DNA from: Picocystis sp. L7 | Lineage: Eukaryota > Chlorophyta > Picocystophyceae > Picocystales > Picocystaceae | Direction: 5' to 3' | Length of the DNA stretch: 64,000 nucleotides | Assembly (NCBI GenBank): GCA_020975725.1 | Contig: QXJR01000004.1 | Location: forward strand, 1-64,000 | Part shown: piece by piece, positions 10,018 through 49,297 of the stretch | How the letters are laid out: each line of letters starts with the position of its first letter | Position numbering within the stretch: position 1 is the stretch's first letter | Position numbers and translations under genes: made by a program | Notes under the pieces: generated by a model | Database searches by the model: none | What the model was told of the DNA's origin: nothing | Seen by the model: only the letters and a program-made list of their open reading frames with translations

Positions 10018-10662
10018 ATGCTCGGAAAACGAACGCTGCGTCACGACGATGCAAACGTGCGGAATGGGATCGAACAGTCGGTGCAGTGCTTCGGGAAGAA
10101 GAAAACGTCGGTGGCTGTGGCCCATTGTAAGCGAGGACGCGGCTTGCTGAAGTTGAATGGTGAGTAGCGACGGGAAAACCCTGTCCCAAAGTGTTCTCGC
10201 TCGAGAGCGCTCCCAGCCACCAAGCAGCATGCAACGGCATGCGATCGCACGGATCTCGGAAAAAAACGGAGAGTACGCCATCGATGGTGCGGTGAAATGG
10301 TGCTGACACTCGACGCCGACGTGCGCAGGATCCCCGCTGGAGCTGATCCAACCCGAAATGCTCAGGTTCAAAGCCTTCGAGCCGGTGATGCTGCTGGGCA
10401 AGGAGCGCTTCTCCAATCTCGACATTCGTGTGCGCGTGAAGGGAGGAGGTCACGTATCTCAAGTCTATGCTATCCGTCAGGCGATTGCAAAGGCCATCGT
10501 TGCCTTTACCAGAAGTTTGTCGACGAGCAGACCAAGCAAGAAATCAAGGACGTCCTGCTCGCGTACGACAGGACCCTCTTAGTTGCAGATCCACGCCGCT
10601 GCGAACCGAAGAAGTTCGGTGGTCGGGGTGCACGTGCACGCTTCCAGAAGTCTTACCGTTAG
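10018..10662 (+). CDS. RPS16: 40S ribosomal protein uS9 (RPS16), one frame change
   Basis: Exon 1 is 10018-10159 and exon 2 starts at 10329 after a 169-bp GT-AG intron. Family blocks are [80 protein letters not shown] and the canonical C-terminus [10 protein letters not shown]. At the T-run 10505-10507 the frame changes: VAF must be followed by YQKFVDEQ, so one T appears to be missing. For a single-copy essential gene a homopolymer consensus error is the likely cause. About 158 aa if read through. The N-terminal 18 residues are not conserved, so the start is less sure. Confidence 0.88.
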
Positions 10663-40049: not shown

Positions 40050-40302
40050 TCCTAGCCCTGCATTCGCCTACGGACATGGTGGAGGAGGACGTCCTTGTGA
40101 GGGGAAGGCAAGGGCCTTCCTCGGGCATCCGAGAATATTCCCTCATGCCTCCCTAGTACTTCCTCGTAGGTAGCAAGATGTTGCAAGCGAGGGAACCAAA
40201 GTGCTTTTGGCCAATGCGGAGTGATCATGGTCACAAGGGCTCTAGGTTCGGCCTCCAACTTGCCTATCACGGAGTCAATGAGGCAACTAAGTGGGTGTGC
40301 CC
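40050..40302 (-). mobile_element. Older retroelement fragment, left flank of the LTR insertion
   Basis: The minus strand encodes a stretch resembling the end of a retroelement RNase H-type region (VTMITPHWPKALWFPRL), as found in DIRS-like and related elements. Its counterpart lies beyond the younger LTR element, at 47791-48010. It is a broken, older copy that served as the insertion site. Confidence 0.5.
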
Positions 40303-40884
40303 TGTAGCGTCCAAGTAGGGTCGCGGACAGGGGACACTTGGGCAACGAGCGAGTTGCGGCTCTCAGCAGTCGTTGAGGTCCTGGAAGAGGCTGATGAGGC
40401 GAGGAGGTCGTCTCGGAGGACAAGTAGAAAAGTGAATTGCAAGGCAAAGAGAGGGACTGGAGGTCCGTCTCTCAAAACCACTCAATGGCGGTTGAGATGA
40501 GGGCAAGTGGGGCACAAGGAGGGTCCACGTGCTGCTGACGGTCAAATCTGACCGTCCGTGCAGCCAGCCGTGGGGCGTCCGGCAGCTGTCCGAGTCATCG
40601 ACACCGTCCAGCCTCCCCAGCCCTACCTTCTAGAAGTACACGGGGGAAGGGAATCCTTTCGACTCAACTCTACCGGTCAAGGGTTCCCTTCATCCCTTAC
40701 TGAAACATGTCCATTGACCCGGGGCGTTCTGCATCTAGTCCCGGGCTCTGTTGACCCACATTCAATCCAGACCCGGATCTATGGTATAACGGTAATAGGG
40801 GGCAGTAAGGCAATGACTGCCCTTTTACTCCCCAAAGTCTCGGGGTCTTCACGCAGGGTCTCATAGGGTCCCTGCTAAGCTACA
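40303..40884 (-). repeat. 3' LTR of the Ty3/Gypsy element
   Basis: 582 bp, TGTAGC...GCTACA on either strand, almost identical to 47209-47790. Confidence 0.95.
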
Positions 40885-40915: not shown

Positions 40916-43900
40916 TCAGACGTGAAGAAAGTCATACACATAACTGATGGGGTCATATAGCATCGCACGTATCTCAGCAGCTGTATAACTTTGCTCGATC
41001 CCATCAGTCCAGCGCACGCAATAGTTTTCACCCGATGTGCCAATCACAATGCCTTGAAAGTATGCTTGGGTGCCATCGGAGGCATGAAACAACTGTTGCA
41101 CCACTGCCTGTTGCAGGTTATGGGGTGACTTGTAAGTCGGTCTTCGTCGGGTCTGGAATGGTAGTTTTGAAGAAGTCCAGGTGTTCACTAATATAGGTGC
41201 TGGATACTGTAAATATACTTGGTGTTTATGCTGTTCCACTTTCTCAAGGTTAGAGGCAGCAATGCCCTGTTCGGGAATGCAGCCATTGTTTTCCTCCAGC
41301 ACCAAAAACTCATCTAGTAGTTCACTAGTTTCATTGACCCACATGTAGGGTTCTGTAGTTGAAGTTGTCTTGACCCAATAACGAACAGGCTGTTGGGGGA
41401 AGAGTTGATAGTCTCTTAATAGATAGCGCTGTATGATTACTGCGGGTTCCACGTTGGCATCCACGGGAAGGGAGGTGGATGCACCAGTAGGTTCTTGCGA
41501 AGGGAAGAGCGTTAAATCTGAATCAAACCACGGTGCCAAACGGTCAGCATTGAAGCGGTCAGAATAGGGCGAATCAGGGGGTAGTTGTAGCCTGTAAGCC
41601 CCTTTTCCCAAGTCTTCAGTAACGGTGAATGGACCGACATAGTATGGGTCCAGTTTGTGCTTATCAGTTGGCCCCTTCAGGCCATACTGGACTTTCACTT
41701 GATCACCAACCTTGAAAGAGCGAGTCGGTAATTGTGAACGCAGAGCCTGGAATTTCTCAGCTTGTTTATGCAAATGCTCCAGTATGGTTCTGTACAATTG
41801 TCGCTGCTTGTCTAGTAGGACAGTAACCCGTTGGTCTACTGTGGATATCATATCTGTGAGACTCTCTGTATTGTCCTGTAAGGTTAGGAACTGCAAGTGC
41901 CAGGGCAACCTTGAAGGGCATCCGAACAAGGCGACAAACGGCGCAACTTTTGTAACAGCATGTACGCTGTCATTATAAGCATGGGCAGCTGCCTGTAAAT
42001 AGTCATCCCAGTTTAAACGGTCATCGCACGTTAAGCGCAGCTGCTGTAAAAGAGTGCGGTGCTGTCGCTCTGCACCTCCTTGGGATTGTGAATGATACGG
42101 TGTTCCAGTGGAATGCTGAACTCCCATTGCAGCGCAGAATGCCTGGAAAAGGTCGCGATACGCCGGCCCATTGTCAGTGTGAATGCGCTGCGGCGTATGG
42201 AAGCGGTACACGAGCGCATCTAGCAAGCATTGCGCTTGTCGGAAAGAACTCCAGGAAGTGTGTATAGCAATGTAGATCGCATACTTCGTAAAACGATCGA
42301 CAACAGTAAGCACCCCATTATGCCCCTTGGCTGTAAGGGGCAATCCTTCGACCACATCCATTACCACTGTGTGAAATGGATAGGGATAAAACTTAGTCTC
42401 GGCAAAGAGGGGCTGGTGCCTAGATGTTGTTCCTGGTTTTTGCATCTGACAAGTTGGACAGCGCGCGACAAAGTGATTTATATGCTGTTTCATTCCTTTC
42501 CAAGTGAAGTGGCGCTTGGCGTTTGCGAAGGTACGCTCTGCACCGAAGTGCGCCTGGTCATGTACTAGGTGTAATAAGTCCTGACGTAAGGCGTCATCTG
42601 CGGGAACCAGTACCACAGCAGGGCCGTCGAAGACATCGATCTGATTTGGTGGGCTGACTTCAAAAAGTAGTCCATTGGTGGCACGCAAATGTGGGGGCGG
42701 CGATTGCAGCCATGCCTCATACTGAGGGTCAGATAGAGCGGCGGACCGTAGGCGCTGCACAAAAGAGGGACTGCCCGGATCGGCTAACGCGGACAGAATT
42801 CTGGACTGTTTGCCTTGAACACACACAGCCTCGGTAAGACTGCGGCTAGCTAGCGGTCGAAGCGTCCCTGTGGGTGTTTTAAAGTAAAGGTCCAGAAGGT
42901 TGGCTATCCACGCTACTGGGAATGCATTGCCGCACAACCGATGTCGCATGCTTGTTGAGACATTCTCGGCAGCTGTGTCTCCAATTTCCATCCCAACCAA
43001 GCGCTCTTTTTCTGTAACTGTCAGCGCTCTTTCAGATCCATCTGAGTTACGTACCCATGTTGTCCGATTGCGGTCACTATGCGAGTTACTCGTTGCCATC
43101 AAAGTGGGGCATTTAAGAACGGGCTGGTTCATTGCCCCAGTAGGAACCGTAGCTCCATCGGTCAAACAATCTTGCCAGGTAAGGGGCAGACCGGGGACAT
43201 GCCATATACGTGAATTGGACGGAAGCGAAGTCCAGCAGTACCTGCTCCTTTTCTGGGGGCAGTACTGGGACATGTCGTGTAAGGCGGGCTCTCCAAACAT
43301 TTCCGCAACCTGCTGAAAATCTTTGTAAAGGTGGCCTGCAAAAGGAGTACATTCGATGATATAATCTGGTTGACCAAGTCGGTTGTAAAGGGTATGTACC
43401 GTTGTAAAAAGTTCTCTTTCATCCCGCAGCCCATAACTGGGGTAGTCTGGCGAGGTATTGGCTTTGGAGAACGGCTGGCATGGTACCCCCGCGATAAGCA
43501 GGTGGACAGGTGGTAGCTTTCTTCGATGCGCCAATACTCGTACATCATTGCCATAACGGAAAATATCTGTGCGGTGAAAGAGTCCAGGTCGATCTAGGTT
43601 CACCTCAGCAAACACCCTCTGTATTACCTTTCGGGCATGCTCTTCTATTTCGACTGCTATGTAATCAACTTGTATTGGATAGCCAGTTGGTATGAGATGC
43701 CACAGAGCTCGAAGGACTGTGCCCATACCTGCACATAAGTCTAAAATCCGGATGATGGGAGGACCTGTGCTAGGGGGGTTGCGCGATAAGTAATCTGCAG
43801 TGATATTTTGAGATCCTGGGCGGTACTCGACAGCGAAAGGTGCAAAGTATGCCAACTTCGCTGTCCAGCGCTGATCCCGGGGACTGAGTTGTTCTGCGGA

Positions 43901-45949
43901 CTTGCTTTGCAAGTACATGCTGGCTTTGTTGTCTGTAAGGACAGTGAATCTCTGTCCAAAGAGAAGGTGCCGCCAATGCTGCAGAGCGTAGACGATAGCA
44001 CAAGTCTCCTTCTCTGCTGGATGATAGTTCCTTTGTGCTGAATTGAACTTTTTAGAGTAATACTCAACTGGTTCCCAGGTGTTGGGGGAGGTTTCTTGTA
44101 GTAGTACAGCCCCCATACCCAAATCCGAAGCGTCAGTCTCAACGCGTATAGGCCGGTCTTCATCAAATAACTGTAAAATAGGTCCAGTAGTGAGCATACG
44201 CACAAGGTTTTCAAAGGCCTGGTCATGTTGAGCCTTCCAGAAACGACAGAAGTCGTGGCGGTACTGTTTGCGAGTGAGCTCTGTAAGAGGTGAAGCAATC
44301 TCTGCATAATTGCGTACAAAGCGCATGTAGAATTGACAAAGTCCCAGGAATGCTAAGTTTTGTTTGTGTGTGACAGGTTTAGGGAACTTTTGTATGCGCT
44401 CCACCAAATGGTCTGCACAACTGAGCTGGCCAGCATGTATGCGAAAACCAACCCATTCCAGCGTTCGGTGGAAGAAGTGACATTTTGACTCTTTCAGTCG
44501 TATGTCGTTACGCTGGCATACCTCGAGGAAGTCTTCCAAATGTTCAAAGTGTTTCTCTTGATCTACAGAGTGTATCAATATGTCATCCATATAGACCTTT
44601 AGAAAGGGCAATGCCCCAAAAATTCGATTCATCATTCTCTGGAACATTGCAGGGGCATTGGCCAGACCCATTGGCATAACCCTCCATACATAGCTGCCGA
44701 AAGGAGTAACAACTGCTGTCTTGTCAACATCTTCTCCATTCATGGGGAGCTGGTGAAAGCCGTCTAGGGCGTCTACTGATGAGAAGATACTTGACCCTCT
44801 CAAGTTCTGCAGGTGGTCATCTATTCGCGGCAACGGGTAGCGGTCCTTAATTGTGGCTGCATTTAGCATTCGATAGTCGAACACGACCCTCCACCCCCCA
44901 TCCTTCTTTGGGATGAGGAGGACAGGTGCCCCCCAACTCGATCCCGCACAGACATCCATTTTCCCAGCGTCCACGTATTCGGTCAGCAGTTCGCGTAGAG
45001 CATCCTGCTGTTGTGGGGACAACCGATAATAGTTGCGATGCACCGGCTGAGTACCAGGTTCCAGCTGAATCTTGAATGACTCACCGGGTACGCGTTCGCA
45101 AGGTAAGGTGGTACGCTTTTCAAAGCAGAGCGCGTACTTGCGGAGCAGCTTCTGCAGTCTCTCTTGTTCGTTGGGTGACAGCGTGCAGGCATCACTGAGC
45201 TTACTGCGGAAGGTCGAAGTTTCTAGTTCTTCAGATGTTAGCTCACAGGTGACATCAAGAGGTTGCACCATTAATAATAAGCATCCTTCTGTTTGCATGG
45301 CCTCTTTGATTTCAGAGGGGGGCACTATAAGGTCAAGTTTACGGGCTTTTATAAAGGCTGTGTCGCCCTGTACTTTATGAACTGTCCCATCAGGATGTTT
45401 AAGTTCCATGTACTGATGCTGCCAGTTTATGTGCAGCAAGAAGAGGTGGCAGAAGTCGACACCTAGTATGCATTCAAAGGTCTCAATGGGGGCCACACCA
45501 AAATAATGACTCACCTGAAAGGTATCGATTGTAATCTGTGCCTGAATAACTTGGGCCTGGTGCACTTCTGTCCCTACTGCTAGGCTGAAATCAAAGTATT
45601 GGCCAGTAGGCCTCCAATTCTGCTGTGTTGGGTCATGCTTCTTCAGTTTTTCAAAGTAGTGAATGCTTAAGAAGGAGTTGCTGGCAAGCGTGTCCACGTA
45701 CGCCTGTGTGGACAGGTCAGTAGGACCTGTAGGTCCAATAGTACTGCTGGCTGTGAGGAACTCGCAACGGGGGCGAGGGTTTGGCGACGCTCGTAAGGCT
45801 ACCACCTGATCTGGGTATAAGTTGTTGCGAGTCAACGGATCAGACCTCGCGCTTGCGGGTGGCACCTCTCCTGGCTCCATCCCGACGGCCTCTTCCGTCG
45901 GGAGGAGCCTGTTCAGTTTTTTGGCATCATTGGCTGGGTGTGACGGCAA
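40916..45949 (-). CDS. pol: Pol polyprotein with embedded C5 DNA methyltransferase
   Basis: About 1677 codons. Rough residue positions: retropepsin-like protease 60-190; reverse transcriptase 310-510 with YMDDILIHS; RNase H 600-700 (VETDASDLGMGAVLL); DNA methyltransferase 730-1020; integrase 1130-1400 with an HHCC zinc region and the D,D,E acids (VVMDVVEG, HTDNGPAY, GGAERQH); chromodomain-like segment near 1500; Tudor-like segment near 1630-1670 (YCVRWTDGIEQSYTAAEI). The methyltransferase shows motif I DLCAGMGTVLRAL, motif IV GVPCQPFSKAN with the catalytic Cys, motif VI ECTPF, motif VIII QKRSRYCW and motif X RLCGNAFPVAWIANLL. It overlaps gag by 37 bp in another frame, so expression by the ribosomal frameshifting usual in this family is likely. 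Confidence 0.93.
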   Translation of the reverse strand: MPSHPANDAKKLNRLLPTEEAVGMEPGEVPPASARSDPLTRNNLYPDQVVALRASPNPRPRCEFLTASSTIGPTGPTDLSTQAYVDTLASNSFLSIHYFEKLKKHDPTQQNWRPTGQYFDFSLAVGTEVHQAQVIQAQITIDTFQVSHYFGVAPIETFECILGVDFCHLFLLHINWQHQYMELKHPDGTVHKVQGDTAFIKARKLDLIVPPSEIKEAMQTEGCLLLMVQPLDVTCELTSEELETSTFRSKLSDACTLSPNEQERLQKLLRKYALCFEKRTTLPCERVPGESFKIQLEPGTQPVHRNYYRLSPQQQDALRELLTEYVDAGKMDVCAGSSWGAPVLLIPKKDGGWRVVFDYRMLNAATIKDRYPLPRIDDHLQNLRGSSIFSSVDALDGFHQLPMNGEDVDKTAVVTPFGSYVWRVMPMGLANAPAMFQRMMNRIFGALPFLKVYMDDILIHSVDQEKHFEHLEDFLEVCQRNDIRLKESKCHFFHRTLEWVGFRIHAGQLSCADHLVERIQKFPKPVTHKQNLAFLGLCQFYMRFVRNYAEIASPLTELTRKQYRHDFCRFWKAQHDQAFENLVRMLTTGPILQLFDEDRPIRVETDASDLGMGAVLLQETSPNTWEPVEYYSKKFNSAQRNYHPAEKETCAIVYALQHWRHLLFGQRFTVLTDNKASMYLQSKSAEQLSPRDQRWTAKLAYFAPFAVEYRPGSQNITADYLSRNPPSTGPPIIRILDLCAGMGTVLRALWHLIPTGYPIQVDYIAVEIEEHARKVIQRVFAEVNLDRPGLFHRTDIFRYGNDVRVLAHRRKLPPVHLLIAGVPCQPFSKANTSPDYPSYGLRDERELFTTVHTLYNRLGQPDYIIECTPFAGHLYKDFQQVAEMFGEPALHDMSQYCPQKRSRYCWTSLPSNSRIWHVPGLPLTWQDCLTDGATVPTGAMNQPVLKCPTLMATSNSHSDRNRTTWVRNSDGSERALTVTEKERLVGMEIGDTAAENVSTSMRHRLCGNAFPVAWIANLLDLYFKTPTGTLRPLASRSLTEAVCVQGKQSRILSALADPGSPSFVQRLRSAALSDPQYEAWLQSPPPHLRATNGLLFEVSPPNQIDVFDGPAVVLVPADDALRQDLLHLVHDQAHFGAERTFANAKRHFTWKGMKQHINHFVARCPTCQMQKPGTTSRHQPLFAETKFYPYPFHTVVMDVVEGLPLTAKGHNGVLTVVDRFTKYAIYIAIHTSWSSFRQAQCLLDALVYRFHTPQRIHTDNGPAYRDLFQAFCAAMGVQHSTGTPYHSQSQGGAERQHRTLLQQLRLTCDDRLNWDDYLQAAAHAYNDSVHAVTKVAPFVALFGCPSRLPWHLQFLTLQDNTESLTDMISTVDQRVTVLLDKQRQLYRTILEHLHKQAEKFQALRSQLPTRSFKVGDQVKVQYGLKGPTDKHKLDPYYVGPFTVTEDLGKGAYRLQLPPDSPYSDRFNADRLAPWFDSDLTLFPSQEPTGASTSLPVDANVEPAVIIQRYLLRDYQLFPQQPVRYWVKTTSTTEPYMWVNETSELLDEFLVLEENNGCIPEQGIAASNLEKVEQHKHQVYLQYPAPILVNTWTSSKLPFQTRRRPTYKSPHNLQQAVVQQLFHASDGTQAYFQGIVIGTSGENYCVRWTDGIEQSYTAAEIRAMLYDPISYVYDFLHV

Positions 45950-47187
45950 TGTTTTGCGTCATGCCCGTAGCGTCTACACTTGATGCACAAGGAATTACTC
46001 TGACAGAGTTGAAGTTGGTCTTGAGAAAGACTGGCTCCCAAAGGCAGACTTTTCATCTGTGTTTGCGCAGCCACTATCCTTTTTTGAAGTTCCTCCGATA
46101 AATCTCTGAATCGCTTGGCGGCCCGTCCTTCGATCGATCGTACGTTGGGGCGGTAGCTCCCTTCCTTCTGAGGTAAGGCATGGACAGTGGCCACAGATTT
46201 GGCTCCATGACCATTTTGATTGAGCGGCCTGACCGTGCGTGAAACACGCCGAGCTTTCTCTCTGTCCTGGGCTTCCACTTTCAATGCGATGGCTGCTATG
46301 CCCCATGGGGACACATCTGGCTTGCGTTCCAAATCAACCATCAGTTGCATGTGTTGCTCCACCTTATTGCCACTGTCATATGGCAGGCCGATGCGTAACC
46401 TGGTGGCGATGTCATTCTCATCAACCCTTGGACAGGTGGGGTCATCGCTCATATTTATCACAAAACTCAGAAGAAGGAGGCGGTTCAAGTAAGTGATCAC
46501 ATTCTCCTTGTTTTGACGTAAACGAGCCCGCTGAAATTCTTTCCAAGCATCAGGCCCTGGGTCTCTTCTTTGAAAGGTCTCCTTGAGTAGACTGAAGAGA
46601 GACGGTAAGTTTGGAACGCGCTCCCGATCAGCCATGATAATATTATCGACCATGATGCGGGCTGTGCCTGTCAAGGTCTGGAGAGCTAGTACTACCTGCT
46701 GGGTTGGATCGCTCGCGTAACCTTCAACCCAACAAGCAACCTCCCTATACCAGTGGGTGAGTGCATATGGGTCATCTATCACTTCCGTTCCAGAGAAGCT
46801 TTTTGGCTTGGACAATGCCACTCCTTGCAACCGGTGGGAGCCTTCCATAGATTGGTACATCTTGGTGAGTGAATGAAGTCCTTGTTGGCTCAATGGTTGC
46901 ATAGCCAGGTGGGAAGCATCCCCAGCTGCCTTCTCATTGGGTTCAACTGATGGTGGAGTAGGTCCATTGTCCTCGCGAGGGAAATCCTCCTCCCCAAGCG
47001 GTTCTTCTTCTTGCACTTGCGGGTCTTGAGCGGGGGTGTCGTTACGCAAACGACATAGTTGACTTTCCAACTCCTCCACTTGCTGAGCAAGGGCGGATCG
47101 AGCGTGTTGCTCACGTTCCAACTCACCTCTCAACCGTTGCATTCGTGTGGCGGTTCCGGAGAGGAATTCTTCCTCCGAGTCGCTCAT
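45913..47187 (-). CDS. gag: Gag protein with CCHC zinc knuckle
   Basis: 424 aa from the ATG at 47187, which lies only about 20 bp inside the LTR edge. An acidic coiled-coil N-terminus (RGELEREQHARSALAQQVEE) precedes a retrotransposon Gag core (HWYREVACWVEGYASDPTQQ, TYLNRLLLLSF) and a basic region. A C-terminal zinc knuckle CIKCRRYGHDAKHC (C-x2-C-x4-H-x4-C) follows, which packages element RNA. The frame is open throughout. Confidence 0.9.
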   Translation of the reverse strand: MSDSEEEFLSGTATRMQRLRGELEREQHARSALAQQVEELESQLCRLRNDTPAQDPQVQEEEPLGEEDFPREDNGPTPPSVEPNEKAAGDASHLAMQPLSQQGLHSLTKMYQSMEGSHRLQGVALSKPKSFSGTEVIDDPYALTHWYREVACWVEGYASDPTQQVVLALQTLTGTARIMVDNIIMADRERVPNLPSLFSLLKETFQRRDPGPDAWKEFQRARLRQNKENVITYLNRLLLLSFVINMSDDPTCPRVDENDIATRLRIGLPYDSGNKVEQHMQLMVDLERKPDVSPWGIAAIALKVEAQDREKARRVSRTVRPLNQNGHGAKSVATVHALPQKEGSYRPNVRSIEGRAAKRFRDLSEELQKRIVAAQTQMKSLPLGASLSQDQLQLCQSNSLCIKCRRYGHDAKHCRHTQPMMPKN

Positions 47188-47208
47188 CGCCAAGCGAAGC
47201 TTCGACAA

Positions 47209-47790
47209 TGTAGCGTCCAAGTAGGGTCGCGGACAGGGGACACTTGGGCAACGAGCGAGTTGCGGCTCTCAGCAGTCGTTGAGGTCCTGGAAGAGGCTGA
47301 TGAGGCGAGGAGGTCGTCTCGGAGGACAAGTAGAAAAGTGAATTGCAAGGCAAAGAGAGGGACTGGAGGTCCGTCTCTCAAAACCACTCAATGGCGGTTG
47401 AGATGAGGGCAAGTGGGGCACAAGGAGGGTCCACGTGCTGCTGACGGTCAAATCTGACCGTCCGTGCAGCCAGCCGTGGGGCGTCCGGCAGCTGTCCGAG
47501 TCATCGACACCGTCCAGCCTCCCCAGCCCTACCTTCTAGAAGTACACGGGGGAAGGGAATCCTTTCGACTCAACTCTACCGGTCAAGGGTTCCCTTCATC
47601 CCTTACTGAAACATGTCCATTGACCCGGGGCGTTCTGCATCTAGTCCCGGGCTCTGTTGACCCACATTCAATCCAGACCCGGATCTATGGTATAACGGTA
47701 ATAGGGGGCAGTAAGGCAATGACTGCCCTTTTACTCCCCAAAGTCTCGGGGTCTTCACGCAGGGTCTCATAGGGTCCCTGCTAGGCTACA
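47209..47790 (-). repeat. 5' LTR of the Ty3/Gypsy element
   Basis: 582 bp, same ends and length as 40303-40884; the difference I see is AAGCTACA versus AGGCTACA at the end. It should contain the element's promoter. Confidence 0.95.
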
Positions 47791-48010
47791 GCCCATAGGT
47801 TGCAAGGACTAGCCCATTCTTGGGCGAGGGCCTTGGTCTCCCGTGTAAAGAAGGCCGGACATTGGGCATGGTTTGGCGAGGCAAACACGTCCCAAGTAAA
47901 TGACCCGAATAGAATTGAGAACCTCTCAAAAGTCTCGCGATGGAGTGCATATTCCTCATCGTCGAAGGACAACCTCGGCAAGGCAAGTGTCGCGCGAGGG
48001 CTAGGCGCAA
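47791..48010 (-). mobile_element. Older retroelement fragment, right flank of the LTR insertion
   Basis: On the minus strand a stretch resembling the RNase H-type region of DIRS-like and related retroelements is visible (FTWDVFASPNHAQCPAFF). It begins exactly at the target duplication and pairs with the fragment at 40050-40302 on the other side. Broken and old; family only approximate. Confidence 0.5.
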
Positions 48011-48261: not shown

Positions 48262-49297
48262 ATGGTATATCACTCTGACGACTACAAAAGAGCAGCCGTT
48301 AGACACTATCTGAACGTCTCTCACAACCGTGATAAAGCCTGTCGTACCCTCGGGTGCTTGAATCTCACCCTCGGCAGATGGATTGAGGTATGAGGATGAG
48401 GATGATTTGGCTCGCCACAATCGCCAATTACGGGCTTACAAGATGAGCAAAGCGCAGGTCCAAGAGGCTGTCGACTTCCTCGCGGACCACCAGACAACAT
48501 CCATACCTGAGCTCCATGCCCACTTGTAGGAAACCTTCGATGATTTTGATATATCTATGGCGCACTTATACAGGGTCGTTAGAGACAACAACCTGACGCG
48601 CAAGCGCACCAAGTATGGACACTATCCGAGAGTCAAGCGCGGCGTGGAGACCAACAAGAAAGCCGACCTCGAAGAGTTCTACTAAATCGTCTCGGCACAC
48701 CCTATCAACCGGATCGTATCTATAGACGAAACCTCGCTGACACCCTTCATGTTCAAGCCATACAGCAGGTGCGCCCTTGGCGAGAAGTGCATAAAGATCA
48801 CAGTCGAGAACAAGGTCTTCACCAAGCACACTTTCGTCGGCGCGATCACGAGCTCCCGCTGTGTGGGCTGGCAGGCGTATGAACGAAGCGCTATGAACGC
48901 CAATCGGTTCGTCGAATTCGTCAGGAGTATCATCAACAAACGCCGTTTGCGTGGCTACTTGTTCCTAGTCGATAACGCCGGTGCTCGCAAGGGCCAAGGC
49001 ATCCGTGATCTGATGCAGCAGACGGGAAACACATTGTAATACACCATCCCGTCCAATCCGCAGACCAACGCGATTGAGAACTGGTTCTCGCAGTTCAAGC
49101 ATTACATGCGTAACTCCACGACCAAGGACTTCGACGGTGTGTGCGATGACTGCAAAAGGTGCATACGGAAGATCACGCCTGAGCATTACCACAACTACTT
49201 CCAAATCGCGTACCGCAAGCACGAGTACCCGCACTAAGAGAGACCGCATGCTTTGACGCGCAGACGACCCCCGAAGAATTGCAAGGTCGATGTGTGA
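48262..49297 (+). pseudogene. IS630/Tc1-mariner-like DDE transposase, interrupted
   Basis: It starts MVYHSDDYKRAAVRHYL, a helix-turn-helix DNA-binding region (to about 48390). One apparent frame change near 48394 follows, then a single frame to a UGA at 49295-49297. The catalytic core is intact in sequence: RIVSIDETSL (first Asp), LFLVDNAGARKG (second Asp) and NPQTNAIENWFSQFKHYMR (Glu). In-frame UAG at 48527 and UAA at 48683, 49037 and 49235 interrupt it. If the last is the true stop, the protein ends YRKHEYPH; if it is read through, a basic tail of about 20 residues ends at the UGA. It catalyses cut-and-paste transposition. As read by the host's standard code it is non-functional. Confidence 0.82.

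Follow-up and report, generated by a model that had tools for sequence, protein, structure and literature searches.

A DNMT3-like cytosine methyltransferase in the Pol polyprotein of a Ty3/Gypsy retrotransposon from the green alga Picocystis

The first 64,000 nucleotides of contig QXJR01000004.1 (bases 1-64000, the stretch analyzed here and termed the window) of the chlorophyte Picocystis sp. L7 (assembly GCA_020975725.1; 20.5 Mb in 30 contigs) carry on the minus strand a complete long terminal repeat (LTR) retrotransposon. It is a recently mobile Ty3/Gypsy element, whose Pol polyprotein bears a DNMT3-like C5 cytosine methyltransferase (MTase) domain lodged between RNase H and the integrase, an identification that we regard as practically beyond doubt. 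We further propose, with a probability of roughly 0.55 for the proposal as a whole, that the MTase of this mobile element is made as part of a frameshifted Gag-Pol protein, would be packaged into particles, and would methylate the newly made cDNA or the site of insertion.

A preliminary description, made from the letters of the window alone, had placed a C5-MTase with five core motifs at 42890-43760; these coordinates are correct, and all five motifs were located in order, in the one pol frame, together with the catalytic cysteine, glutamate, and arginine:

42890..43759, minus strand: DNMT3-like C5 cytosine MTase domain, Pol residues 731-1020 (Pfam, profile, and fold)
43721..43741, minus strand: motif I, DLCAGMG, S-adenosylmethionine binding; kept in 52 of 55 domain rows
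43475..43483, minus strand: motif IV, PCQ, catalytic cysteine; kept in 54 of 55 rows
43340..43354, minus strand: motif VI, ECTPF, catalytic glutamate (ENV in DNMT3); kept in 54 of 55 rows
43241..43255, minus strand: motif VIII, QKRSR; 54 of 55 rows, by a loose pattern
42917..42931, minus strand: motif X, GNAFP; kept in 52 of 55 rows

The Pfam match itself (DNA_methylase, residues 801-851, E 2e-7) passes the cut-off and spans only positions 48-94 of the 324 in the model. Alignment to C5-MTases, on which the preliminary description had staked its domain call, was recovered with a 10-row MTase profile, which reaches solved DNMT3A/3B structures at E 3e-12 and DNMT2 far more weakly (E 1e-4). The AlphaFold2 model of the domain (predicted local distance difference test score, pLDDT, 83.4; predicted template modeling score, pTM, 0.85) returned DNMT3 entries for 50 of 50 among the Foldseek matches listed, DNMT3A scoring E 2.6e-18. 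DNMT3 is thus the best match by both profile and fold, before DNMT1, DNMT2, and bacterial enzymes. The nearest solved structures, DNMT3A and DNMT3B, share with the window MTase the conserved Cys, Glu, and Arg and an RY-W and L-CL-G region after motif VIII; they differ from it in sequence (22-28% identity in the structural alignments listed) and in setting, the window MTase lacking PWWP and ADD domains and lying inside a retroviral-type polyprotein. Because PCQ and ECTPF replace the PCN (motif IV) and ENV (motif VI) of DNMT3A, we file the domain as DNMT3-like and not as an ordinary DNMT3.

The element around the domain has the following parts, listed in its own 5' to 3' direction:

47791..47794: target-site duplication GCCC beside the 5' LTR (direct sequence)
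47209..47790, minus strand: 5' LTR, ends TGTAGC...GCTACA; one mismatch with the 3' LTR, at 40878
45913..47220, minus strand: gag open reading frame (ORF), 435 aa, with a CX2CX4HX4C zinc knuckle at its end (CIKCRRYGHDAKHC)
40916..45949, minus strand: pol ORF, 1677 aa
45680..45700, minus strand: protease active-site-like motif YVDTLAS, aa 84-90 (read by eye)
44438..44914, minus strand: reverse transcriptase (RT) domain RVT_1, aa 346-504, with YMDD at aa 453 (Pfam)
43844..44239, minus strand: RNase H, aa 571-702 (Pfam)
42434..42598, minus strand: integrase zinc-binding H2C2, aa 1118-1172 (Pfam)
42089..42379, minus strand: integrase core rve, aa 1191-1287 (Pfam)
41534..41674, minus strand: integrase C-terminal SH3-like domain of the Tf2-1 type (SH3_Tf2-1), aa 1426-1472 (Pfam)
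40303..40884, minus strand: 3' LTR, direct repeat of the 5' LTR
40299..40302: target-site duplication GCCC beside the 3' LTR (direct sequence)

Both LTRs are 582 bp long with TG..CA ends and differ at that single base. The pol frame is free of internal stops, and its Pfam domains run in the order RVT_1, RNase H, DNA_methylase, H2C2, rve, and SH3_Tf2-1; no protease family was matched by Pfam in pol, and the Pfam search of the gag ORF, whose CCHC knuckle was identified by eye, gave no match. We assign the element to Ty3/Gypsy since, among solved structures, the two best matches of its RT-RNase H stretch are the Ty3 RT and the Ty3 Gag-Pol (4ol8, E 2e-84; 7q5b, E 7e-84), the next following at 1e-52. 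The sequence 3' of the 5' LTR starts with TTGTCGAAGCTTCG..., which by eye has no initial TGG; the window holds no tRNA for comparison. Just upstream of the element, at 48300-49000 on the plus strand, there is a decayed transposase-like reading (of the DDE type by eye).

The junction between gag and pol, where the 3' end of gag reads CCA AAA AAC TGA, contains two further features:

45916..45922, minus strand: slippery heptamer A AAA AAC, directly before the gag stop TGA (45913-45915), with pol in the -1 frame
45873..45909, minus strand: stem-loop, 6 nt 3' of the heptamer; the window copy forms 15 pairs

A heptamer and stem in this layout constitute a standard -1 frameshift signal. The heptamer with its immediate stop codon is present at all 19 loci examined, which represent six families and were drawn from 29 Pol loci (L009-L037), and a frame of more than 200 aa terminates at that stop in 17 of them (the exceptions being L011 and L023). 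The stem downstream folds in each of seven copies (z -2.4 to -4.6). Across the alignment of the seven sequences 90.5% of pair cells pair, a figure that falls to 24-47% when the partner is slid along, and changes on both sides are seen at 7 of the 15 pairs, which none of 500 shuffles attains; the number of pair types is not unusual (271 of 500 shuffles). Given this conserved signal, the MTase is predicted to occur only within Gag-Pol, in the amount that frameshifting allows, and to be packaged into particles alongside RT and integrase. The particle-like stoichiometry anticipated by the preliminary description is hence what the signal predicts, and the dose of the enzyme, that is, the Gag-Pol stoichiometry, becomes a concrete and testable prediction.

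Searching the genome with the Pol query recovered eight full-length copies at 98-100% identity (the window's own included), one more copy that is split in two (96-97%), and members of other families, full length or near it, with identities of 69-74% and 60%; here and below, counts from genome searches are lower bounds. The MTase domain query matched at least 128 places at E <= 0.001 (128 of 189 candidates scored), and the 165 merged MTase places include a handful of host genes, one of which was entered two times. An MTase lies 1.13-1.39 kb downstream, on the same strand, at 117 of the 150 Gypsy RT places scored. Among the 33 others, 25 carry at that spot a segment about 194 aa long (discussed below), and eight, all in short frames of 317-688 aa, have neither. 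The window family has ten LTR pairs spaced 6,897-6,906 bp apart, nine of which enclose a listed MTase. At least one of the RT places with neither (C3:121148) sits between family LTRs 6,897 bp apart, and therefore the MTase list misses some copies. The near-identical full-length copies, the many MTase places, and the nine LTR pairs show that sibling copies carry the domain, contrary to the refuting outcome named in the preliminary description, namely siblings without it and a chimeric assembly junction here. In trees of the RT and MTase domains (34 rows each) most well-supported groups are, by eye, held in common, and two database proteins, P0009 and P0017, are placed differently or unresolved. 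The MTase is thus a settled part of these Gypsy elements. As to distribution along the genome, 68 of the 165 merged MTase places fall on two of the 30 contigs (C3 and C4), a repeat-rich pair; three matches on one strand of C4 (1048782, 1055931, and 1063080) are spaced at 7,149 bp and probably mark elements arrayed head to tail with LTRs in common.

Outside the genome, the Pol query found 19 database proteins for which the MTase region was scored, 18 of them at 46-95% identity and one (P0019) at 30%; ENA is listed as the source of 15 of the 19. One 1934-aa protein from ENA (P0034) is a Gypsy-type Pol with both a C5 methylase (matched over aa 906-968) and a Dam-like N6-adenine methylase (aa 1162-1251), i.e., two different DNA methyltransferases in a single polyprotein, both between RNase H and integrase. 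EukProt entries named Pavlova_lutheri, a haptophyte (P0020, P0024, P0010, and others), are up to 98% identical to the window element. This label is at odds with the LHCII-type genes of the green kind in the host genome (18 light-harvesting complex matches, among them L038, which has chloroplastic chlorophyll a-b binding proteins among its own matches, with a lowest E of 2e-117 over a single stretch), genes that also speak against a red alga as host, and mislabeling, contamination, or horizontal transfer may be responsible. A bacterial or viral origin of the MTase domain was considered and dropped, as nothing nearer than DNMT3 emerged among the records scanned. In scans of viral and genome contigs, which cover records bearing one of two short peptide patterns and are not exhaustive, viral contigs yielded six loci at 28-31% identity to the domain and genome contigs five, four being weak local matches (35-44% over 41-78 residues); the best match among BFVD structures (E 2.5e-16, 21% identity) compares with 2.6e-18 for DNMT3A. 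The fifth of the genome-contig loci (L055, PUNI01000121.1), filed under a Rhodobacteraceae metagenome-assembled genome, holds RT, MTase (59%), and integrase pieces 59-73% like those of the window and most likely represents eukaryotic sequence that contaminates a bacterial record. In the 27-row MTase tree described below, a C5-MTase from a viral-collection contig (L049, IMG/VR contig IMGVR_UViG_3300030328_000292) is placed next to DNMT3A and the domains of the transposons, with moderate support.

The ratio of nonsynonymous to synonymous substitution rates (omega, by Nei-Gojobori with bootstrap ranges) was estimated for pairs with unsaturated synonymous divergence, most other between-family pairs being saturated at synonymous sites. 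For the MTase it is 0.055 (0.031-0.085) in the pair L022/L023, 0.101 (0.058-0.148) in L033/L036, and 0.097 (0.055-0.156) in L029/L031; the other domains of these pairs give 0.010-0.045 for RT, 0.012-0.025 for RNase H, and, in the two of three pairs where it is measurable, 0.037-0.039 for integrase. Within a family (L017/L020), the MTase value of 0.146 (0.058-0.298) is similar to those of the other Pol domains. The MTase is under purifying selection between lineages and, because omega between lineages is low, maintained.

Based on these observations, we propose that Pol would be reached from gag by -1 ribosomal frameshifting, so that Gag-Pol carries the MTase, which would be packaged with RT and integrase and so join, or remain among, the enzymes of the particle. 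It would methylate cytosines of the new double-stranded cDNA or at the insertion site. We consider this the likeliest activity because the domain is DNMT3-like, catalytically intact, under selection, and brought along with the enzymes for DNA synthesis and integration. The context would most likely be CpG, by analogy with DNMT3 and with SymbioDIRS-Dnmt3 of Symbiodinium, two domains of which methylated CG de novo in yeast (PMC5890265). A new copy would thereby enter the host genome already methylated, and the candidate benefits include being taken for host DNA, a shielding of the cDNA, and self-restraint in a tiny genome.

Several observations weigh against this proposal. The tree grouping of the domain with DNMT3A, in which the transposable element domains, DNMT3A, and L049 share one side of a branch with support 81/89 (27 of the 31 prepared rows; DNMT3A a single long branch; a fragment without motif I), is moderately supported, and the transposable element domains plus DNMT3A without L049 are rejected (approximately unbiased test, p-AU 0.005). 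In the measurable between-lineage pairs, evolution of the MTase outpaces that of the other Pol enzymes, and for the window family the range of omega (with 1.22 and 1.01 as its upper bounds) is too wide to be told from neutrality. In yeast, no detectable methylation came from KnitGypsy-Dnmt3, the Gypsy element of the charophyte Klebsormidium nitens whose Pol includes a Dnmt3 (de Mendoza et al., 2018, PMC5890265), a result that the authors call inconclusive. Copia elements are abundant in the Picocystis genome without an MTase (of 150 RVT_2 places scored, one has an MTase within 2.5 kb, on the opposite strand), so that spreading here does not require the enzyme. Finally, the codon-aware CpG ratio, taken at codon boundaries, ranges over 0.57-0.73 for eight Gypsy sequences with an MTase and over 0.44-0.56 for four Copia sequences lacking one (L060-L063), against 0.54-1.10 for 13 host genes of the window and 0.84-0.85 in two, or 0.81-0.85 in four, sequences of the motif-less family described below. 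The footprint is hence not specific to the enzyme, and CpG depletion was dropped as a mark of self-methylation, Copia being the more depleted in all four sequences examined; the earlier conjecture that the enzyme methylates element DNA so as to hide new copies or imitate host marks gains no support from the same comparison. The Copia depletion suggests that transposable elements are methylated by host enzymes, or depleted in some other way, without help in cis, and the host genome codes for a DNMT1-like enzyme (L001, E 1e-184 to DNMT1), a DNMT2 (L002), and a chromomethylase-like protein with a chromodomain-like insert recognized by eye (L003). An excess of C>T changes at CpG among near-identical copies was likewise not used as support, since it varied between families (absent from family A, some fivefold in family F; over five families, 45 singletons at 2378 CpG sites versus 122 at 10394 other C/G sites).

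A further point on that side comes from the family with the segment of about 194 aa, represented by L045 (566-1147, minus strand), in which this segment lies between RNase H and integrase without any MTase motif in frames open up to 2672 aa. It has 33 genome matches, three of them split, which makes about 30 copies. When the first 99 residues of the segment are aligned end to end with the MTase portion preceding PCQ, they score above 1000 of 1000 shuffles for P0017, L033, and P0010 (the best alignment, with P0017, has a score of 26 and is colinear with the start of the MTase) and above 999 of 1000 for the mean over twelve MTases, the boundary having been picked by eye; two of the twelve, L044 and P0018, gave no signal against this part. 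For the whole segment, 93 of 1000 shuffles are as high for the end-to-end mean, and further tests gave weak or negative results: hhalign against the MTase profile gives p 0.046 at a probability of 1%, the hidden Markov model score is 0.6 bits, a value exceeded by 9 of 1000 shuffles, the mean of the free-end alignments does not stand out from shuffles (298 of 500 score as high), and AlphaFold2 returned no usable fold (pLDDT 40.8). The dN/dS between four near-identical motif-less copies is too noisy to use. On these sequence comparisons, the segment is probably an MTase remnant devoid of the catalytic motifs; if so, catalysis is dispensable in some lineages, and the ancestor that bore the MTase predates the split. 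That bears directly on the notion that the domain is chiefly a structural or DNA- or chromatin-binding part of Pol, e.g., a spacer or an integrase guide, with catalysis secondary. The retention of these residues at exactly the same place in long frames, the shuffle results for their first half, and the fixed position of the domain beside the integrase speak for such a role, but a mere scaffold would not need the catalytic residues that are near-invariant in the MTases (52-54 of 55 rows), and the MTase kinship of the segment is itself only probable. We therefore hold this scaffold role to be unlikely, if worth serious attention.

It is less probable still that the enzyme acts in trans and not on its own cDNA, with the host genome or rival elements as its targets, so altering the host methylome, for instance by providing favorable target chromatin or silencing competitors. 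The at least 128 MTase places would permit genome-wide effects, an idea also raised for Symbiodinium (PMC5890265), and the four CpG-depleted Copia sequences imply present or past methylation of elements with no enzyme of their own; however, the host DNMT1-like and chromomethylase-like enzymes could account for that depletion, and packaging within Gag-Pol favors action on the contents of the particle. RNA, the first nucleic acid in the particle, would be another conceivable substrate in the form of the particle's genomic RNA, one that the motif layout permits and that has been raised, as RNA methylation, for SymbioLINE-Dnmt (PMC5890265), but the kinship and fold are nearest the DNMT3 DNA enzymes with DNMT2 far behind, and we consider this option quite improbable. 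The chance that the arrangement is an assembly chimera or a one-off capture is close to nil, being refuted by the copies on many contigs, by proteins of other assemblies, and by contig L055. We accordingly retain the proposal that a packaged MTase would act on the cDNA or at the insertion site.

Elements of this kind are already known from a few algae, and that such captures had been reported in algae and dinoflagellates, as the preliminary description stated, is confirmed by KnitGypsy-Dnmt3 and by SymbioDIRS-Dnmt3 and SymbioLINE-Dnmt (PMC5890265). In Picocystis, MTase-bearing elements are the rule among the scored Gypsy RT places. KnitGypsy-Dnmt3 shares with the window element the LTR Gypsy type, a Dnmt3-family enzyme in the Pol ORF, and purifying selection on the DNMT; it differs in host lineage, in its DIRS-like repeat structure (legend of Fig. 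4c) as against the plain LTR-internal-LTR arrangement here, and in abundance, K. nitens having fewer copies than Symbiodinium (PMC5890265) whereas most scored Gypsy RT places carry the MTase in our genome. Given the plain direct LTRs, we regard the window element as of the same kind as KnitGypsy-Dnmt3, matched by description, and do not assign it to the same family. The Symbiodinium elements are likewise retrotransposons encoding a C5-MTase, with hundreds of copies and, in SymbioDIRS, a Dnmt3 in Pol, but they belong to the DIRS (tyrosine recombinase) and LINE classes and not to Ty3/Gypsy with an rve integrase (PMC5890265). DIRS elements with a Dam-like N6-adenine methyltransferase also feature a retroelement-borne DNA methyltransferase, although this acts on adenine, is structurally unrelated, and occurs in another element class (PMC5890265; PMC6338049). 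The open-licence literature searched yielded no description of a DNMT-bearing Gypsy element in a chlorophyte, an absence that is weakly supported. The window element is thus a rich further example from another lineage, with ordinary LTRs.

We tentatively raise the possibility, which we do not favor, that there was a single ancient capture by Gypsy, after which the MTase became a standard Pol domain and diversified along very deep branches (domain identities as low as about 30%), both in green algae and in further eukaryotes that are unsampled, one family retaining a dead remnant and KnitGypsy-Dnmt3 being included. If true, what is published as an independent charophyte capture would become part of one old clade that spread vertically and perhaps horizontally. 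Cytosine methylation is normally directed at retrotransposons; in this 20.5 Mb genome, the many Gypsy elements bring along a DNMT3-like enzyme within the polyprotein responsible for making and integrating their DNA. Several MTase-bearing lineages, one lineage that probably lacks activity, and Copia elements without the enzyme in the same nucleus form a natural comparison for asking why an element should carry its host's silencing enzyme, a comparison that is served by the many recent and intact copies in this compact alga.

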